Shown one piece after another: positions 2,799 to 11,030 of a DNA stretch of 46,769 nt (positions are counted from its first letter, which is position 1; each line of letters begins with the position of its first letter). A model generated the notes under the pieces. It was given only the letters and a program-made list of their open reading frames with translations, did not search any database and had not been told where the DNA came from. The DNA comes from a virus. The DNA lies in the IMG/VR virus record IMGVR_UViG_3300024257_000018, positions 1 to 46,769 of that record; one strand, 5' to 3'. The position numbers and the translations under genes were made by a program.

Positions 2799-4752
2799 TG
2801 GTAGCCCTCACCGTCAACGTTGGCGTGTCTGTCGTGTGGAGGAGCACCACCGGACTATCAATGGCCGGGAGCGGCTGGCCCTTCACGTCCTGGGTGCGGT
2901 CGATGAAGATCGGGAGCCATGGCGCCGACCATCCATTTTTGGCCCCGAAGGCGCGCCGGATGCCTGCTCTGAACCACGCATCGCCAACGACCTGTTTCCC
3001 GGTGGAAAGCACGTCCCATGGGAACCCGCCCACGCTGATCGCCACCGCCGGCTTGTCTCGGAACTCGACACAGACCGGGCCCATGTCGCCCATGACCGCG
3101 AGCTGCTTCGAAGCCGCACGTCCGGGCGCGATACGAACCGCGTCGACCAACGCGTCGCGGCGCTTCCATTCCGCTTCGGCATCGGCGAGCCATTGTGTCG
3201 CGTCAAGCACGCTCTTTTCGAGGTCGGTGAGATCCTTTGTGCGGTGCGCGGCCTTGGAAACTGCGGCGGTGTACGCGTCCCTGTCGGCCCTTAGCGCGAG
3301 GAGCTTCTCGGCCTGTGGCCGGTCGAACGATGGGCGAACCGGAGCAACGGCGCTCATGTCCACCGGTGTGGGCTCGTTGCCGATCCTAACGCGCCGGTCT
3401 TTCCAGTTGGCGTGCGCGGTCAGCATCCCGTCGAGCCTGTTCAACTCGATCGCCGCGGCGTCATGCGCCTTGACTGCATCTTCCTTGGCCATCCGTGCGC
3501 CGGATTTCTCAGTCTTGGCCTCGTCGATGGCGCGATTGATACTGGACGTGGCGGAACGTCGTGCATTGATGAGCGCCTTCGCGGCGAGTTCCTTGCCGTC
3601 CACAATGACGTCACGTTGCGCTATGAGATCCGTGACGGTGTCTGCCGCTGCCTCCCACCCATCGCGGCCACATGTCGGGCACGTGTCACCGGCGGCGCGT
3701 GCATCGGTCAGTTTGACCTCGATCTTTTCCAGATCGGATGTCGCACCGTCCAGCGCCATGCGGGCGGTGACGACCAGCGGATCACCCTCACGAGTCATGT
3801 TCGCCTTCGCGATCACGTCCGCTTCGGCAGCGTCAAGCCGCTGCCTGGCGATACGGAGCGCCGTCGTGGTGCCGTTGTAGGCGTCACGTCCGGCTGCTGC
3901 GTCATTGGCGTCAGGAACGGGCGGCTCGTCACCAAGCTCGTCGATGTCCGCTCGCCAGTTGTGCATCGAGATCTTGTAGTCGGCCTCGTGCGATTCGGCG
4001 TTCTCCCATGCCCGGTATGCCTCATCGTAGGCGCGCCATGCCTCAGCGGCTTCGGTGTACGCCTCAGCTGCTGAGGCGTCGTAAGATGGCAACGGCGCGT
4101 CGGCGTCGGCGGTGAGTTTGGCGAGCAGCTCACGCATGCCTTGGAGCCGCCCCTTGAGTTGTTCGACGCTGACGAACTGGTCGTGCCGTTTCACCTTGGC
4201 CGTGGACTCGTCGAGCGGGTCGGACTCGTTCAGTTCATGCCCGCTTTCGGCCATCACCTCACCGATCTCGTCACGGATGTCGACGGGTGGCAGGATGCGA
4301 AGCAGCTTGTCCCGAAGCGGGCGGCCCCCACCCTCGCCCTGGATGTCCTCCATCCACGACATCGGAAACATGACCAGATGGAGCAGGTCGATCTCGACGC
4401 CGAGCACTGCGAGACGTTCCGCGAACTTCTTGTCGGTCGGGTAGCCGACCGGGCCGCTGGCATCGGTGACCATCCTCGTATGCTTCCGCTTCACGTTCAT
4501 CTTGCGGGTGAACACAGTACCGCTCGTGGTGGTCAATGCGACCTCGCAGAACTTACATCCTTTACGGATGCGCTCGACCGAGAACGGGTTGTGGTTCTCG
4601 TCCTTGCCCCACAGCGCGAACGCCACCGCCGCCATGGTCAGCGACTTGCCGCATTCGGACGGGCCGGAGATCGTGGTGAATCCGCCGGCTGGGAAGTTCA
4701 GTACCCTGTCCTCGTGCGGGCCCATGTTTGTGATTCTGAGTTGCTTAATCAT
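2791..4752 (-). CDS. Rad50/SbcC-like ATPase (recombination endonuclease subunit), 653 aa
   Basis: This is an SMC-type ATPase resembling SbcC/Rad50 or phage T4 gp46. The N-terminus reads MIKQLRITNMGPHEDRVLNF, followed by Walker A GPSECGKS (30-37). Long alanine- and charge-rich helical arms flank a zinc-hook-like CPTCG near residue 358. Near the C-terminus, LSTGK could be a degenerate signature motif and WLPIFIDRTQD a Walker B-like strand. The ATG at 4752 has AGGAGG upstream; the longer frame lacks one. No SbcD/Mre11 nuclease partner is visible in the window, which is unusual. Confidence 0.85.
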   Translation of the reverse strand: MIKQLRITNMGPHEDRVLNFPAGGFTTISGPSECGKSLTMAAVAFALWGKDENHNPFSVERIRKGCKFCEVALTTTSGTVFTRKMNVKRKHTRMVTDASGPVGYPTDKKFAERLAVLGVEIDLLHLVMFPMSWMEDIQGEGGGRPLRDKLLRILPPVDIRDEIGEVMAESGHELNESDPLDESTAKVKRHDQFVSVEQLKGRLQGMRELLAKLTADADAPLPSYDASAAEAYTEAAEAWRAYDEAYRAWENAESHEADYKISMHNWRADIDELGDEPPVPDANDAAAGRDAYNGTTTALRIARQRLDAAEADVIAKANMTREGDPLVVTARMALDGATSDLEKIEVKLTDARAAGDTCPTCGRDGWEAAADTVTDLIAQRDVIVDGKELAAKALINARRSATSSINRAIDEAKTEKSGARMAKEDAVKAHDAAAIELNRLDGMLTAHANWKDRRVRIGNEPTPVDMSAVAPVRPSFDRPQAEKLLALRADRDAYTAAVSKAAHRTKDLTDLEKSVLDATQWLADAEAEWKRRDALVDAVRIAPGRAASKQLAVMGDMGPVCVEFRDKPAVAISVGGFPWDVLSTGKQVVGDAWFRAGIRRAFGAKNGWSAPWLPIFIDRTQDVKGQPLPAIDSPVVLLHTTDTPTLTVRATNG

Positions 4753-4848
4753 TGGATCCTCCTGGTGTGTTGGTAGCAGAACGAACCGGCGGTTTCGTTG
4801 ACCGGGTCGGGCCCGGCGCACCGGTTCGTCACCTACTCGCGAACCTTC

Positions 4849-5199
4849 CTAAGGTTGGCTCGCTTTCGCCGCCACATGCTGCGCAGGGACCCCCGCGTCG
4901 ATCAGCCGGGCGTCGATGTCATCGGGGCAGCACGTAATTCGGTTGAATGCGTTTGCGCGAGCGTCGGCGACCGCGTTCCAGACCTCAGTGCTGGAGTTAT
5001 GGTTCGGCACGACTGCGTCGAGAAGCAACGCGACATTGATCGGGTTGAGCGATACGAAGGCGCACTCGTTGTATAGGTCGACATCACAGCGGTGACTGAT
5101 CGCGTAGTCGATCGCTTCCTGCCCCCGGAGTAGGCAGGCGCTCCATGCGGTCGTTCCGTGGTAGTATTTTGCCTCATGTCGTTTGTCGTTGCCGTTCAT
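4849..5199 (-). CDS. Hypothetical accessory-cassette protein, 116 aa
   Basis: The ATG at 5199 has GGAG 7-8 bases upstream and sits just after operator promoter B. Longer readings run through the promoter and are rejected. The N-terminus (AKYYHGTTAWSACLLRGQEAIDYAISHRCD) resembles a single ankyrin-like or ADP-ribosyltransferase-like opening, but nothing decisive. It appears to be a stand-alone cassette (one promoter, one gene). Confidence 0.65.
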   Translation of the reverse strand: MNGNDKRHEAKYYHGTTAWSACLLRGQEAIDYAISHRCDVDLYNECAFVSLNPINVALLLDAVVPNHNSSTEVWNAVADARANAFNRITCCPDDIDARLIDAGVPAQHVAAKASQP

Positions 5200-5302
5200 C
5201 TTGCTTGCTCCGTGGTGGTTTGTCCTGCTCACGGGTATAGTTATACGCACACCGCGTAAGCATTGCAAGCAGAAAATGCACGGGGAGTGTATTTTCTTTT
5301 CA
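5197..5302. repeat. 106-bp promoter/leader repeat, copy 1
   Basis: From the start codon of the 116-aa gene through its leader, promoter, operator and upstream palindrome, this stretch matches 25071-25176 with only six differences counted by eye. The two genes it precedes are unrelated. The repeat is therefore a portable regulatory cassette. Confidence 0.85.
5240..5296 (-). promoter_or_regulatory. Leftward promoter with operator and upstream palindrome (site B)
   Basis: Minus strand: -35 TTGCAA (5268-5263), 17 bp, -10 TATAAC (5245-5240). The operator TACGC-N5-GCGTA covers 5244-5258. Nine bp beyond the -35 lies a second palindrome, GCAC-N5-GTGT (5278-5290), inside a longer A/T-flanked inverted repeat at 5272-5296. 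It is almost identical to site E near 25140. Confidence 0.78.
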
Positions 5303-5330
5303 ACAACCATGATCGCAGGCCACCAGCGCG

Positions 5331-6422
5331 CTACGGTACCGGCGAACCGGTGTTGAGCGCGAAGTCTTCGACCGCCACCTCGCCCGCCGGTTCCTCGATG
5401 ACCTCACCGGTTTCCGGGTCGAGCACGGACTCGACCGTCTCGTCACCGCTATCGTCTACCGTTTCGGCCGGCGTGTGGCTGAGCGCTGCGAGGCCCTCGG
5501 CGGGTTGGGCCGGCTTCTTCTTCGCTTTCTTGGCCTTGGTCGTCTTGCCCTTGGTCGCCCTGGTGGTGACGGTCTCGGTGTCGAAGACGCCGTCCACGGT
5601 CTCAGTACCGGCGCGCAACCGCTCGGCCAGGCCACGCAGGTTCAGGAGGTCGCTCACGGTCCACTTGGAATGATCCGCACCGATGTAGTCTTCGATCTGC
5701 TCGATCGTCACCTTGATCTTGCTGGTGTAGTACTGGATCGCGTCGTCGGCGGCTTCGGTCAGGGTGACGGTGTACCGGTTGCCGTTATCATCCGTACGGA
5801 TCAGGATCTCGGCCGAAGCCACAGCCTTGGCGGCGTCGAATGCCGCACTGACGTACCACTCCGGCAGCACGTGTTGGAGCGCGGTACGCTTCGCCTTGCT
5901 GATGCCGGACTGCATCTGCATCGTCCGCCAGCGCTGTGCTTGATCTTGCTTCTTCGCGAACTTGGCCGGCGGCGGCGCCACGGTGAAAACGAACGGGCGG
6001 CGATCGAACGTCATGGTGACCAAGTCCGCGACGGCGATCGAGAGTTCGACATCGTTGCCAGCAAAGCCCTTCACGTCGATTCGCGTGGACAGGCAGCCCC
6101 ACTCCCCTGCGAGCGCTTCGATCAGGTTGACGGTGGGGCCTTCGATGCGTGACCCACCCTGACCCCATGCGTAGAACGCCTTGGAGTCGCCCTTTGAGTT
6201 GAACTTCGACCCGATCTGTTGCCCGATCTGTTTCGCCCGTTCGGTCAACCGGCCATGCTCCCGGTCCCGCCCCATGGACTGGGCGATGCGGACCATGGTC
6301 TCCAACTCGGAGAGCTGGGCGTCGGTCTCGTCCGGGTCAGCAACCTTGAAGTTGACGGCGTCGGGCTCCGTTGCTGCCGGCTTCGGGTCTTGGTTCCAGT
6401 CTTCCTGATACGGTGTGCTCAT
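5331..6422 (-). CDS. Phage replication/recombination-associated protein, 363 aa
   Basis: It resembles a family of conserved phage and mobile-element proteins that carry the signature GGSRIEGPTVNLIEAL followed by WGC (here about residues 90-110). Such genes usually sit in recombination modules next to exonucleases or annealing proteins, and a role in single-strand annealing or DNA binding is inferred, not shown. Lys/Ala-rich (about 295-310) and acidic C-terminal segments look disordered. The start at 6422 has AAGGA upstream and is preceded by operator promoter H. Confidence 0.65.
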   Translation of the reverse strand: MSTPYQEDWNQDPKPAATEPDAVNFKVADPDETDAQLSELETMVRIAQSMGRDREHGRLTERAKQIGQQIGSKFNSKGDSKAFYAWGQGGSRIEGPTVNLIEALAGEWGCLSTRIDVKGFAGNDVELSIAVADLVTMTFDRRPFVFTVAPPPAKFAKKQDQAQRWRTMQMQSGISKAKRTALQHVLPEWYVSAAFDAAKAVASAEILIRTDDNGNRYTVTLTEAADDAIQYYTSKIKVTIEQIEDYIGADHSKWTVSDLLNLRGLAERLRAGTETVDGVFDTETVTTRATKGKTTKAKKAKKKPAQPAEGLAALSHTPAETVDDSGDETVESVLDPETGEVIEEPAGEVAVEDFALNTGSPVP

Positions 6423-6452
6423 GGTGTTCCTTGGTGTTTGGTTCGTGGTTGA

Positions 6453-6481
6453 ACGTTAGCATGGTGCGTATGGTGATGCAA
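6453..6481 (-). promoter_or_regulatory. Leftward promoter with degenerate operator (site H)
   Basis: Minus strand: -35 TTGCAT (6481-6476), 17 bp, -10 TAACGT (6458-6453). The spacer carries one good half-site (GCGTA, 6466-6470) and a degenerate partner TTAGC (6456-6460) at the standard 5-bp separation. It drives the 363-aa gene. Confidence 0.55.
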
Positions 6482-6484
6482 CGG

Positions 6485-6679
6485 TTATTTCCGGTTTGGT
6501 TCGGTCTTGTCGAAGATGTCCATCTGGTTCAGTTTCAGTCGCCGGACCCGTTCTGCCACCATCGCTTCCGCGATGTCGTAGATGCTGCCAGCAAAGTCGC
6601 TGACTTCGAATGCGCCATTGGGCATGTTCGCCAACAGCCCAGTCAACGCGGCGGCGGCGAAGTGGTCAAGATCGGTCAT
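6485..6679 (-). CDS. Small hypothetical protein, 64 aa
   Basis: The ATG at 6679 overlaps the upstream stop (ATGA) and has GGAAG nearby. The protein is a short helical domain (HFAAAALTGLLANMP ... IYDIAEAMVAERVRRLK). No family was recognised. It ends the operon that begins at promoter C. Confidence 0.65.
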   Translation of the reverse strand: MTDLDHFAAAALTGLLANMPNGAFEVSDFAGSIYDIAEAMVAERVRRLKLNQMDIFDKTEPNRK

Positions 6680-7026
6680 GGCTTCCTGTCCTTGACGAAG
6701 GCATAGACGGACTCGAAGACCGGGATCCCGAGACGACCCGCCTCGGCCATCTCGCCTACGCTCCCGTCCGATCCCATGAAGTCGCCAACCATCACCACGG
6801 CATCACACCGCCGCATCAGTTCCATCGTCGCGTCCAACCAGAACGTGTCTGTCAACGTCCCGTTGAAATACCGATACATCGTGTGGACGCTCAGCGGGAC
6901 GAAGCCGTTGGTGGCGAGCAGAAAAGCCGTCTCCTCAACAAGCCTGATGTTCTGTTCGACCTCCCATGCGTCTTTGCCTCGGTACGGTCCTGCGATGTAG
7001 ACCACGGTCATGTCTTGGTTCGGCAT
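6676..7026 (-). CDS. DUF4406/nucleoside 2-deoxyribosyltransferase-like protein, 116 aa
   Basis: The N-terminal strand and loop VVYIAGPYRG, an aspartate in CDAVVMVGDF (about 74-84) and the SVGEMAEAGRLGIPVF helix match the DUF4406 / nucleoside deoxyribosyltransferase-like fold. Related enzymes cleave or transfer nucleotide sugars; phage members may act in nucleotide salvage or modification (inference). GGAG precedes the ATG at 7026. The neighbouring methyltransferase fusion gives a DNA-metabolism context. Confidence 0.75.
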   Translation of the reverse strand: MPNQDMTVVYIAGPYRGKDAWEVEQNIRLVEETAFLLATNGFVPLSVHTMYRYFNGTLTDTFWLDATMELMRRCDAVVMVGDFMGSDGSVGEMAEAGRLGIPVFESVYAFVKDRKP

Positions 7027-7058
7027 TGTTACTCCAGGTCAAGGGTTTCTTGTCGGAC

Positions 7059-10000
7059 TCAAAGCAGCGCTTGCTGCTTGTGGTTGCGCTCGATGCTCAT
7101 GTCTGCGTTGATGGCCGCTTGGCGGAAGTATTCGGCCTTCAACTCGACACCGAGGCCGAACCGGCCCTGTTCGATCGCAACGTAGATTTCCGACCCGATG
7201 CCAGCGAACGGCGTGAACACCGTCTCACCTGGATTGGTCCAGAGCCGCACACACCGTCGAATCACCTCCAACTGGAGCGGACAGATGTGCTTTTCGTCGG
7301 CTTCGGCGCGGCCACCCTGCCATCCTTGGATCACGTCGGTTTCTCGGATGTCGCCCCATACTCCAGACGCCCACTCGATCCATTCCTCGTTGGAGACGTC
7401 GTTGTGGACCCGTACCGCCTGTTTGCCGGGTTTGCGGAACTCCAACACGTAGTCATTGAGCGCGGGGCTCGATTCCAACGAGTCCCGCTTGAACTGCGAG
7501 AACTGGAGCCTCTCGCTTTTGGTGCGGATGGCGGCGGCCTGTGGGTTCTTGGGCACCACGAACTCGCCGTAGTAGTGGAATCCGGCATCGCTCATGCGGT
7601 TGACGACGAGCCCGCGGAAGTCACGGAGGCCCTTCCTGCCGTGCTTGTTACGAAACGCTACGAGCTGCGCCAGATGCAGGCAAACCACCCGCCCCGGCCG
7701 CATGACCCGAAGTAATGCATCGCAGAAGTGAGCGAAGTGAATCGAGAACTCGGCGTCTGACCCTTCCGTACAATTGCCCATGTCTTCGGGCTCGCTCGAG
7801 TACGTGAACAGCGACGAGAACGGCGGCGAAAACACGGCCAGGTCTACCGAGTCCGGTTCCATCGTGTCGCGCATGATCGCGATACTGTCCCCGTGCATGA
7901 TGCGGTAGTGGTCTGGATTCTCCACGTCCGCCAACCGCTCCGATGTCGTGGTCACGATGTCAGGCATTGTCTCTCCCTTCTGGTAGCATTCGAGTTCGGT
8001 TTGGAGCGCGCCGGCGAAGATGCGCTCGTGTTCGCTGGCGACGCGGTCCCATTCATCGCCTTTCGCAGCCAGTACGTCGATGATGCGCTGTTCGTCCGGT
8101 GAAACCATCATGTGGACGTCCAGACACCCTACGCGTCCCTGTCGGTGGGCACGCCGTACCGCCTGGTGATAGGCCTCGTAGCTCTCATCGTAGGCGGCAA
8201 AGACCATCCGTTCGGCACGTTGGAGGTTGACACCGTGCCCGATGACCTTCGGTTTCGCCACGATGCAGTCAATGCCCCCCGCCTGGAACGCCGCCACGAT
8301 GGCCACCCGTTCGACGTCCGGCGTCCGGCCCGCAATCTGGGCAACGCTGATACCGGCATCACGGATGGCACGCTCGCACGCGTCGGCATGGGCATTGTAG
8401 TTCGCCCATACGATGCAGTGCCCCTTGCGAGCAACATCCACAACCCGAGACATGCGCTCAGTGCTGGAGTAGACGTCGCGTCGGACTGCTGCCCGGTTGC
8501 TCATGGTCATCCCGGCGAGAGGGGCACCAAACAAGTCGCGGTCTACGTCGACGGATGACTGCTGTTCGATGTCCTCGATGGACACCCGGTAGTCATTGGG
8601 AGGCAACGCGTCGCACGGCATACCGTAGACTGACGGGTCTCGCATCCAGAGCGCGAACCGCGACAACCACTGCGGGAGTTCGTGGACGGCATGTTTCTTG
8701 ACCCGCCAGTCTTTGCCGTCGCGGACGAAGAACCGAGACCGAAACTCGGCGTCAGACCGAACGTACCCGAGCCATGTGGCATGAGTGGCGTACTCGGTCG
8801 GGTCGTTGGGGGCCGGGGTAGCTGACAGTGCCAGCCGGTTGTCGACGGTCTGCACGGCGCTGGCAAGGTGCCGCGCGATGGCCCCGTCGCCGCTCTTGAG
8901 GATGCTGGAGTTGTGGACGAGTAGGCCGTTTACGCTGAAAGACGGATGCCGTGTCGCCTCAATGTCGTGGAAATGGAGCTTTCCGTCGGGCGTCCTGAAT
9001 CGTTCCAAGTCAGGATGTCCCAGTTCCAGAATCTCAACACCGTCCACCCGAGCCCAGTCAGCGCCAGATCCTTCTTCTCGTCCAGCGTTTTCCTGCTCCT
9101 GTGCGAGTGCCCGTCTACTTCGATACCTACCATTTTCCCGACGTGTGCTAGGTCCAGTTTGTAGTGGGTCGGATACCCGGCACGCCTCCGACCGAGAGAA
9201 ACCGGGTGTTCCGACTCCCACTCGTTCCCGAGCGCTTCCAATAGGATGCGTTGCGGTTCGGTCATCCCGCGTCCGTTCCCGCCCTGCACTGGTGGTCTGT
9301 GCCCCTTTGCGAGTAGCGTTCGCGAGATCTTCTTTCTTACGGCCGGATCCTTCGTCGGGTTGAGCTTTCGAATCCGCTCCAACTCCATCTCGGCCTTCGG
9401 ATTCCCAGAACGCAACCATGCGCGCCTTTTCTGCCCACGCTTCGCAGCCACTGCCGGTGAATGCACCCGAACCAGATTTTCCGGCTGATGCATCCTCCAT
9501 TTCGCGGAGCAGGACTTCCCGCAGAATCGTGTAGGGGCGTCGGATGGGTGCCAAGCCTTCGGGGCGAAAACCTTCTTGCACCAGCCGCATTCCCTCGGCT
9601 GTTGCCATGACACAATCGCCGGATTGTAGGTTGCGTGCCCGGACCCATCCCCGTTTGGTGAAATACGGATGATTCGCGCTACTGAAAATCCGCTGTCCAT
9701 CGACTTTGATTCGGATGACACGGTTGACCTCTCGGCTGTGTGTGGCGCGGACGGTGTCAACGCCGGTGACGTTCAAGACCTGGTCCCCAGGTCTCACGTC
9801 TTCAATATGCACCCTTCGCACGTGACCGTCAACCATGCAGTCCACAGGCGTCCCTGGAGCGAAACACTCATCTAGAACGAACGCCGACAACCCAGTCAAG
9901 TCGCGCTGCCTGACAAAGGCGTGGTGCGACACGAGCGCGATTCCGTTCGGGTCGTCGAGCCACGCGGACACGTCCCCGGTGCGCACGTGCTGGACGGTCA

Positions 10001-10358
10001 TCATCGGGAAGAACTTCGCGACCTCGTTCTCGAACTCGTGGATGGCCACGAGCGGGGCGCAGACCATGGCGGGTCCGCCGTCGCGCATGTGTTCGGCCCA
10101 TGCCAGGCTGATCGACGTCTTGCCAAGCCCACATTCCAAGAACAGCGCGGCCCGGCGTCTGGCCACGGCGAAGACAACGGAGAACCGCTGATAGTCGTGG
10201 AGATGCGGTGCGAGTTCGTCTATCTGTTTGGCCGCGACATCGGTGGCGGGTTGCCAGTCTGGCACAATAGCAAAGTCGCCGTCGTATGTCACTCCGGGAG
10301 TGTTCTTGATGCGCAGGAACGCGGCGTAGTCTTGCCGCACGTTGATACGGGTTGGCAT
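7059..10358 (-). CDS. SNF2-type helicase-DNA methyltransferase fusion containing an intein, 1099 aa precursor
   Basis: The N-terminal helicase has motif I ECGLGKTS (75-82) and motif II VLDE (161-164), which is split by the intein. After the intein come SATPAP (motif III) and QAVRRAHRQGR (motif VI). A DNA methyltransferase domain follows from about residue 798: motif IV SPPF (844-847), then a C-terminal motif I-like FAGIGSE, the order typical of N4/N6-amino methyltransferases. Removing the 319-residue intein leaves about 780 aa. The ATG at 10358 has AGGT upstream; a longer GTG-initiated frame runs through the 58-aa gene and is rejected. Confidence 0.88.
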   Translation of the reverse strand: MPTRINVRQDYAAFLRIKNTPGVTYDGDFAIVPDWQPATDVAAKQIDELAPHLHDYQRFSVVFAVARRRAALFLECGLGKTSISLAWAEHMRDGGPAMVCAPLVAIHEFENEVAKFFPMMTVQHVRTGDVSAWLDDPNGIALVSHHAFVRQRDLTGLSAFVLDECFAPGTPVDCMVDGHVRRVHIEDVRPGDQVLNVTGVDTVRATHSREVNRVIRIKVDGQRIFSSANHPYFTKRGWVRARNLQSGDCVMATAEGMRLVQEGFRPEGLAPIRRPYTILREVLLREMEDASAGKSGSGAFTGSGCEAWAEKARMVAFWESEGRDGVGADSKAQPDEGSGRKKEDLANATRKGAQTTSAGRERTRDDRTATHPIGSARERVGVGTPGFSRSEACRVSDPLQTGPSTRRENGRYRSRRALAQEQENAGREEGSGADWARVDGVEILELGHPDLERFRTPDGKLHFHDIEATRHPSFSVNGLLVHNSSILKSGDGAIARHLASAVQTVDNRLALSATPAPNDPTEYATHATWLGYVRSDAEFRSRFFVRDGKDWRVKKHAVHELPQWLSRFALWMRDPSVYGMPCDALPPNDYRVSIEDIEQQSSVDVDRDLFGAPLAGMTMSNRAAVRRDVYSSTERMSRVVDVARKGHCIVWANYNAHADACERAIRDAGISVAQIAGRTPDVERVAIVAAFQAGGIDCIVAKPKVIGHGVNLQRAERMVFAAYDESYEAYHQAVRRAHRQGRVGCLDVHMMVSPDEQRIIDVLAAKGDEWDRVASEHERIFAGALQTELECYQKGETMPDIVTTTSERLADVENPDHYRIMHGDSIAIMRDTMEPDSVDLAVFSPPFSSLFTYSSEPEDMGNCTEGSDAEFSIHFAHFCDALLRVMRPGRVVCLHLAQLVAFRNKHGRKGLRDFRGLVVNRMSDAGFHYYGEFVVPKNPQAAAIRTKSERLQFSQFKRDSLESSPALNDYVLEFRKPGKQAVRVHNDVSNEEWIEWASGVWGDIRETDVIQGWQGGRAEADEKHICPLQLEVIRRCVRLWTNPGETVFTPFAGIGSEIYVAIEQGRFGLGVELKAEYFRQAAINADMSIERNHKQQALL
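7965..7977 (-). promoter_or_regulatory. Internal ribosome binding site for a free methyltransferase
   Basis: In frame within the fusion gene, GGGAGAG (7977-7971) lies 3 bases before an ATG (7967-7965) exactly at the helicase/methyltransferase boundary. Initiation here would yield a separate 302-aa methyltransferase (7059-7967) in addition to the fusion. Whether it is used is not known. Confidence 0.5.
8910..9866 (-). other. Intein (319 aa) in the helicase DE box
   Basis: The inserted protein begins with Cys in CFAPGTPV (block A), directly after the DE of helicase motif II. It has block B SSANHPYF (intein residues 62-69) and ends LLVHN with Ser as the +1 residue. Removing it restores DE-SS-ILKSGDG, a normal motif II context. 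The roughly 200 residues between the splicing blocks are charged, Arg/Gly/Glu-rich and structureless-looking, because this DNA is also read in another frame for an endonuclease. Confidence 0.88.
8930..9700 (-). CDS. Vsr-like (EDxHD) homing endonuclease nested out of frame inside the intein, 256 aa
   Basis: The frame is +1 relative to the host gene. The N-terminal zinc finger has C38, C41, C60 and C64 in the ECGWCKKVF ... FCGKSCSAKWR pattern common in homing endonucleases. The C-terminal nuclease core has YKLDLAH (D183), IEVDGHSH (E194, D196, H200), a DEKKDLAL helix and GWTVLRFWN, matching the Vsr/EDxHD fold. The start is uncertain: the ATG at 9700 is the first ATG but lacks a clear ribosome binding site, and an upstream TTG (9760) is possible. 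Confidence 0.82.
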   Translation of the reverse strand: MDSGFSVARIIRISPNGDGSGHATYNPAIVSWQQPRECGWCKKVFAPKAWHPSDAPTRFCGKSCSAKWRMHQPENLVRVHSPAVAAKRGQKRRAWLRSGNPKAEMELERIRKLNPTKDPAVRKKISRTLLAKGHRPPVQGGNGRGMTEPQRILLEALGNEWESEHPVSLGRRRAGYPTHYKLDLAHVGKMVGIEVDGHSHRSRKTLDEKKDLALTGLGWTVLRFWNWDILTWNDSGRPTESSISTTLRRHGIRLSA

Positions 10359-10362
10359 ATCG

Positions 10363-10539
10363 CTACCTGATGCGTGTGAATGTGGCAAACGGCTGAGCGC
10401 CACCGCCGAAGTCGAACGACTCTCCGACACCGAGCGAACGGACCAACTCACAGAACTCGTCGTCGCATTCGTTTGCATCGGTCCATTCTGCAACTGAACC
10501 GTCACATGTCTCGCCGTCTTCGTATTCTCGTCGAATCAT
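10363..10539 (-). CDS. Small acidic protein, 58 aa
   Basis: The ATG at 10539 has GGAGG seven bases upstream and is the first gene after promoter C. The product is acidic and Cys-containing (MIRREYEDGETCDG ... NECDDEFCELV), with a GGGAQPF turn. It ends four bases before the helicase fusion starts, so the two are co-translated. No family recognised. Confidence 0.68.
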   Translation of the reverse strand: MIRREYEDGETCDGSVAEWTDANECDDEFCELVRSLGVGESFDFGGGAQPFATFTRIR

Positions 10540-10562
10540 GATTCCTCCGTGGTGGTGCCTGT

Positions 10563-10590
10563 ATTATACGCGTTGCGCGTATGATGGCAA
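10563..10590 (-). promoter_or_regulatory. Leftward promoter with perfect operator (site C)
   Basis: Minus strand: -35 TTGCCA (10590-10585), 16 bp, consensus -10 TATAAT (10568-10563). A perfect operator TACGC-N5-GCGTA occupies 10567-10581. It drives the 58-aa gene, the helicase-methyltransferase-intein gene and the two genes after it. Confidence 0.78.
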
Positions 10591-10598
10591 GCGTGTTT

Positions 10599-11030
10599 TT
10601 ACCCAGGATCCGGCAGACCAAACAACGCGCGATCCTCCGGCGACAACCGACGCAGCACCGCGTCCCGTCGTTGCTGTACCAGCATCGCCACGCCCTCGGC
10701 GCAGTCGAGACCCTGGATGTGTTCGGCCGGCGGTTCGGGACGGTCGACCTTCAACTTCCACTCCCAGACCAACTTGCCGTCGCGGAACAACGCGCGCCAG
10801 ACATCGGCCGACTCCTCGCCCTCGCCATCGATCATCACGGCGTACGGCTGCCCCTTGGTGACCTTGCACATGTCGTCCTCGCAGTCGTACCACTTCATGC
10901 CCTCGCCCTCCTCCGCGAGACGTTCACGCACAAATTCACCATCACGGACGGTCGACTCAAGCCGGTCGAGGAACAGTTCCATGGCGTTGCTCGGAAACAC
11001 CGTTGCTTCGAAACGTGTCCTGTATCCCAT
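10599..11030 (-). CDS. Hypothetical phage protein, 143 aa
   Basis: AAGGAG precedes the ATG at 11030, one base past the previous stop. Features: a basic aromatic N-terminus (MGYRTRFEATVFPSNAMELF), a beta-rich centre (YAVMIDGEGEESADVWRALF), and a helical C-terminus ending in LFGLPDPG. It is the last gene of the operon that starts at promoter G. No family was recognised. Confidence 0.7.
   Translation of the reverse strand: MGYRTRFEATVFPSNAMELFLDRLESTVRDGEFVRERLAEEGEGMKWYDCEDDMCKVTKGQPYAVMIDGEGEESADVWRALFRDGKLVWEWKLKVDRPEPPAEHIQGLDCAEGVAMLVQQRRDAVLRRLSPEDRALFGLPDPG

Follow-up and report, generated by a model that had tools for sequence, protein, structure and literature searches.

Inteins that carry homing endonucleases of the LAGLIDADG or HNH kind, such as PI-SceI, normally hold the endonuclease in frame between their splicing blocks. 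In the arrangement called 'fractured genes', reportedly described by Dassa et al. in 2009, a split intein is said to have a free-standing EDxHD homing endonuclease gene between its halves. A third kind of insertion is represented by the ShiLan domain and the Pacc40 gp60 insertion; the ShiLan nuclease is an HNH enzyme with a GTG start and no ribosome-binding site in the third frame of an actinophage methylase gene (Arsenault, Gosselin and Gogarten 2025, Genes 16:178, PMC11855218). The authors, who detected no splicing domain of either an intein or an intron, reported a disordered host-frame product and a disjunct distribution that suggests homing. Here we describe an intein in a viral helicase gene whose DNA also encodes, in another frame, a protein with a predicted nuclease fold. 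The window, by which we mean the whole stretch analysed, comprises positions 1 to 46,769 of IMG/VR virus record IMGVR_UViG_3300024257_000018 (46,769 nucleotides). We regard the element as very likely a mobile intein with a homing endonuclease that is translated on its own, from the +1 frame of the same DNA. Its components, a HINT intein and a DUF559/EDxHD nuclease, are ordinary and its architecture is unusual; that the element is real is strongly supported by comparative evidence. The features on which the argument turns are the following, with slashes here and below marking splice or insertion points.

7059 to 10505, minus strand: host gene, an SNF2/ResIII-type helicase fused to an N6/N4 DNA methyltransferase (Helicase_C 1.2e-13, N6_N4_Mtase 1.8e-13, phrog_62 3.4e-56)
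8910 to 9866, minus strand: intein of 319 residues, CFAPGTPV...LLVHN/SS, between E and S of DESS at the helicase Walker B
9597 to 9866, minus strand: N-terminal half of the HINT splicing domain, intein residues 1-90, with a predicted local distance difference test score (pLDDT) of about 97; Foldseek matches to gp41-1, RecA and DnaB inteins
8910 to 9056, minus strand: C-terminal half of the HINT splicing domain, residues 271-319 (pLDDT about 97); as far as base 8930 this DNA also encodes the nuclease C-terminus
9069 to 9479, minus strand: predicted disordered filler, intein residues 130-266, which is the frame-0 reading of the nuclease gene (mostly pLDDT < 50)
8930 to 9760, minus strand: nuclease open reading frame (ORF) nested in the +1 frame of the host gene, at most 276 residues from a TTG (DUF559 1.5e-9; AlphaFold mean pLDDT 88.7; Foldseek matches 3hrl and 3r3p)
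9509 to 9589, minus strand: Cys4 zinc-finger-like motif of the nuclease (C38, C41, C60, C64); across 58 relatives C38 and C41 are invariant and C60 and C64 at least 90% conserved
9023 to 9154, minus strand: putative nuclease catalytic core D183, E194-x-D196-G-x-x-H200, D207, G218-W219, R223, N226, invariant columns in the 58 relatives, aligned to 3hrl

Like canonical endonuclease-containing inteins, the element joins a HINT domain to an endonuclease and is inserted at a conserved active-site motif. The window endonuclease is not in frame between blocks B and F, as in those inteins, but out of frame by +1, and would be translated separately, which runs counter to the textbook view of an intein and its homing endonuclease as one polypeptide. 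As in the fractured genes, the intein is accompanied by an EDxHD/Vsr-type nuclease with an ORF of its own, and eight relatives share the split layout; in contrast, the intein frame that overlaps the nuclease is continuous in the window and in 153 relatives, and the host frame of the window, rather than being broken into two ORFs, runs end to end without a stop. One stretch of DNA appears to serve both as a protein splicer and as the enzyme that spreads the splicer.

The host ORF encodes 1148 residues if started at GTG 10505; ATG 10358 (MPTRINV) is a plausible true start. The preliminary description, made from the letters of this DNA, had placed an intein in frame 0 at the helicase DE box, and its borders proved exact. 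The intein has every splicing residue (C1, His66 in block B, the penultimate H318, N319 and a +1 Ser), and C1, H66, V317, H318 and N319 are invariant in 56 inteins of the family. Profile searches on both frames agreed with that description: frame 0 matched Pfam PT-HINT at 3e-8, along with an Intein_splicing match at 2.7e-6 that falls below the curated cut-off of that profile, and the +1 frame matched DUF559. AlphaFold models of both frames, built with family alignments, gave a HINT fold in frame 0 with 2lwy, gp41-1 (6qaz) and the RecA and DnaB inteins as its best structural matches in Foldseek. Intein-free actinophage homologues of the host gene read LDESSILK at the site, and the uninterrupted sites among intein-free homologues are DECHH, DEAHH and DESS. 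An intron was considered and rejected; an Rfam scan of 7000-11000 for group I or II introns gave no intron match at E up to 1 and nothing else relevant.

The window shares with ShiLan an insertion in a phage gene, an open host frame, an endonuclease in another frame, a disjunct distribution suggestive of homing and a disordered host-frame reading, and this predicted disorder in the middle of the insert (as in PMC11855218) is what favours a non-spliced insertion of that type, with an out-of-frame nuclease gene in the helicase tolerated as a disordered loop. We consider this very unlikely, since the ends of the insert form a confidently predicted HINT domain whose complete splicing residues are invariant in the relatives, nuclease-free mini-inteins occur at the same site, and an unspliced insert exactly at the catalytic Walker B box should inactivate the ATPase. 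Where ShiLan pairs an HNH nuclease with no splicing domain, the window family pairs a HINT intein with a DUF559/EDxHD nuclease that is always in +1, often has a Shine-Dalgarno sequence and occurs at more than 150 loci in phages and bacteria. The preliminary description had known of no intein nuclease nested fully out of frame. A text search of partial literature likewise turned up no intein described as containing an overlapping-frame endonuclease, and earlier single cases are possible; for the out-of-frame nuclease itself, outside an intein, ShiLan is a precedent.

The second protein, predicted earlier as 256 residues with a nuclease core, is encoded by a +1 ORF that follows a stop at 9773-9775, ends at 8930 and lies wholly within the intein. 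Besides ATG 9700, which gives those 256 residues, starts at GTG 9721 (263 residues) and TTG 9760 (276 residues) are available. The DUF559 match is above the cut-off, and a profile search against structures returned 3hrl at 3.5e-13 and 3r3p at 0.056. In Foldseek, the nuclease model matched the DUF559 protein 3hrl with probability 0.99 and TMt 0.71 and I-Bth0305I (3r3p) with probability 0.96 and TMt 0.65; no match of the whole model fell below E 0.001, and the likeness stands on probability and TM-score. Both 3hrl and I-Bth0305I, an EDxHD group I intron endonuclease, share the predicted fold and the D...ExDGxxH...D core with the window nuclease, but are free-standing or intron-borne and overlap no intein. 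Residue conservation and the modelled fold thus agree with the zinc finger and Vsr/EDxHD core that the preliminary description had assigned, and we retain both as predicted features.

Splicing residues and nuclease residues had been described as dual-coded, and this is only partly so. It stands at the 3′ side, where nuclease residues of about 215-256 and intein residues of about 271-312, ordered in both proteins, share DNA. It does not stand for block B (9660-9680), which shares DNA only with the N-terminal tail of the nuclease ORF, a poorly conserved part modelled with low confidence, or for the terminal His-Asn (residues 318-319), which is outside the overlap, past a nuclease stop that comes about 8 codons ahead of the splice junction.

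A host frame open by chance was rejected by shuffle tests on 100 loci and on the window alone. When the nuclease protein was held fixed and its codons shuffled synonymously, the host frame of the window stayed open in 1 of 20,000 shuffles, with 7.0 stops expected. At 100 non-redundant nested loci, preselected for an open host frame, the same kind of shuffle predicted 951 host-frame stops where there are 0, and codons before AA, AG or GA ended in T in 0 of 6623 cases (23% elsewhere). Host-frame stops are near the expected level of about 28 in the free-standing relatives L075 (29), L106 (31) and L112 (21) and the split relative L119 (23), indicating that the avoidance is gone when the intein frame needs no read-through.

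The reverse shuffle is less telling: given the host protein, 591 of 20,000 shuffles leave the +1 frame of the window open. Openness alone is therefore weak evidence, and the nuclease might be a decayed or non-functional passenger whose ORF is merely a by-product of the intein frame. This is extremely unlikely in view of the confidently predicted nuclease fold, the (near) invariance of catalytic residues and zinc-finger cysteines across 58 diverse relatives, and the pattern of substitution. Between close pairs, substitutions in the exteins peak at host codon position 3 (0.339), whereas inside the overlap the peak moves to host position 1, equivalent to nuclease position 3 (0.132, against 0.037 at host position 3). 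The peak at nuclease position 3 indicates that the nuclease is under purifying selection while the host frame is kept open. The codon-wise comparison across homologues that had been proposed for this locus thus came out in favour of two constrained frames. Both ORFs, their predicted folds and the dual constraint can be read from the sequences, and they show that two unrelated folds have been dual-coded over the long term in more than 150 lineages.

How the nested ORF is expressed bears on whether the nuclease is a protein of its own. Programmed +1 ribosomal frameshifting would instead fuse the N-terminal parts of helicase and intein to the nuclease, with no separate initiation, and the nuclease frame is indeed +1 and never +2 in 153 of 153 nested loci, as a +1 slip demands. 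Common descent accounts equally well for a constant frame, free-standing relatives have ORFs of their own, and a Shine-Dalgarno sequence of at least 5 bases with an ATG is strongly enriched in the nuclease frame, so that we find frameshifting quite unlikely. Upstream of the first zinc finger, such a pair occurs in the nuclease frame at 39 of the 100 loci, whereas the third frame has it at 0 and the host frame at 2, which supports internal initiation. In the window the relevant feature is modest:

9719 to 9731, minus strand: GAGGT (9727-9731) as candidate ribosome-binding site, five bases ahead of GTG 9721

Mobility of the nested intein is most evident among Vibrio phages. Phage CP-T1 has a nested intein of 1059 bases where VchM-138, 96% identical, has the exact empty site (DEAHH becoming DE/C...HN/CHH). 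Among related Vibrio lentus/crassostreae phages, the site is empty in 1.024.O, 141O35-1, 1.251.O and PS17B.1, holds a nested intein of 1068 bases in 1.194.O, K391 and 1.088.O, and holds a 150-residue mini-intein without nuclease in K389, K459 and PS65A.1 (L162, L163 and L164). Third-position differences between 1.194.O and 1.088.O amount to 0.475 in the exteins and 0.048 in the non-overlapping part of the intein, as lateral transfer would give. The element is thus present or absent at a specific site and has moved laterally, both of which are evident from these genomes. In PS65A.1, Walker A of the same helicase also holds another intein-like insertion, the longer of the two.

The mechanism we propose for the overlapping-frame intein is as follows. 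The host frame would be translated straight through helicase, intein and helicase; the two HINT halves would fold, with the nuclease-coding stretch as a floppy linker, and once the intein had excised itself the DExH/DESS Walker B box would be whole again. From the same mRNA, ribosomes that initiate internally, often at a Shine-Dalgarno sequence within the intein frame, would make a zinc-finger endonuclease of the DUF559/EDxHD type. Helicase alleles that lack the intein may be cut by this enzyme at Walker B, and their repair would then copy in the entire element. Selection for homing would keep the nuclease frame open, and frame 0 would stay open because a stop would kill the helicase. Separation of the nuclease from the intein would also allow its dose to be set by its own ribosome-binding site.

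Several points temper this proposal. Splicing, translation of the nested ORF, the cleavage target and homing are steps that we infer. The ATG at 9700 in the window lacks a strong Shine-Dalgarno sequence, and the best candidate is GTG 9721 with GAGGT. The preselection of loci in the 100-locus stop test favours an open host frame, which is mitigated because 153 of 168 relatives have one. Across the whole family, the distances of the nuclease correlate about as well with those of the extein (rho 0.365) as with those of the intein (rho 0.38), so that co-inheritance of nuclease and intein as a host-independent unit is not shown family-wide.

The relatives themselves are numerous and largely hidden by annotation. 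A tblastn search with the nuclease against 50,697 phage records matched 40 phages, including those of Vibrio, Pseudomonas (MR14) and Corynebacterium (phi673), and in each region opened the match lay inside a helicase gene (labelled helicase or hypothetical protein), shifted by one base from its frame and unannotated. Because the examined records are annotated in this way only, a class of homing nucleases appears to have been overlooked. A scan of genome contigs with the single nuclease sequence gave zero relatives, and an alignment-based scan found them; profile scans of IMG/VR and GTDB contigs yielded 168 non-redundant relatives. The nuclease is nested in +1 inside the intein in 153 and in +2 in 0, and all 153 nested inteins keep the C-terminal HN[CST]. 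The other 15 comprise 8 split, 3 free-standing, 1 decayed and 1 in-frame relative and 2 ordinary DUF559 proteins. Nuclease-free relatives are short mini-inteins at the same site, and no relative combined an unchanged intein with a stop-filled +1 frame, the outcome that the preliminary description had set against its own proposal. Of 53 host proteins examined, 46 match Intein_splicing and 43 Helicase_C, and DnaX-like clamp loaders are also among the host genes. Intein borders called at 88 loci give a median of 316 residues and an insertion mostly at DE/[CS]; homing into DExH-box codons may explain the broad range of host genes.

In the eight split relatives (L119, L249, L251, L252, L253, L254, L256 and L257), many stops interrupt the host frame between the N-half, with block B, and the C-half, with HN/C. 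The two halves share one frame, and the nuclease lies between them, still in +1 and overlapping the N-half by about 101-116 bases. That both halves keep one frame suggests interconversion with the nested layout. In a tree of the nucleases, many forks of which are weakly supported, free, split, decayed and in-frame members are interspersed among nested ones, so that nesting looks like the common state giving rise to the others, although the direction is not proven. We think it probable that these loci form a widespread, apparently unannotated class of inteins that sit at the Walker B motif of helicases and other P-loop ATPases in phages and bacteria and encode their homing endonuclease in a +1 frame overlapping their own. 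Once read-through was no longer required, such inteins would become split inteins with both halves in one frame and a homing endonuclease gene between them, making overlapping-frame inteins a natural source, or an alternative state, of fractured genes and split inteins. Since the family holds nested, split, free-standing, in-frame and nuclease-less states, it can be used to test the origin of split inteins.

Several relatives depart from the nested layout in other ways. In L075 and L112, the nuclease gene stands directly upstream of a helicase gene with an uninterrupted DEAH or DESH box, which resembles a homing endonuclease gene beside its target. The free-standing nuclease of L075 (3355-3996) overlaps the intact intein-free helicase gene at 3965-5623, and that of L112 (3803-4414) overlaps the one at 4378-5868. 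L114 (2846-5524) encodes a UvrD-type helicase with a Walker B intein that holds a DUF559-type nuclease in frame, the sole in-frame relative found. L028 (3911-4750) has an intact nuclease ORF, several stops in the surrounding intein frame and no recognisable helicase nearby; we read it as a decayed or escaped copy.

The N-terminal domain of the window intein also matched two actinophage inteins, those of the ET08 portal and Barsten minor capsid proteins, neither of which has a nested nuclease of the DUF559 kind or a same-strand alternative-frame ORF of at least 100 residues within it. The ET08 portal intein has LAGLIDADG-like motifs in frame. The minor capsid intein of Gordonia phage Barsten (L328, 1619-4726) is about 270 residues long; no LAGLIDADG motif was noticed in it, and it has no nested ORF on the same strand. 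In mycobacteriophage CaptainTrips (L329, 689-1051), an annotated free-standing HNH endonuclease gene lies directly upstream of an intein-free helicase homologue. At the L003 locus (3306-6536), a neighbouring terminase-like ORF holds a second intein-like insertion (ACLTEKNLVYVPDG...THN/S).
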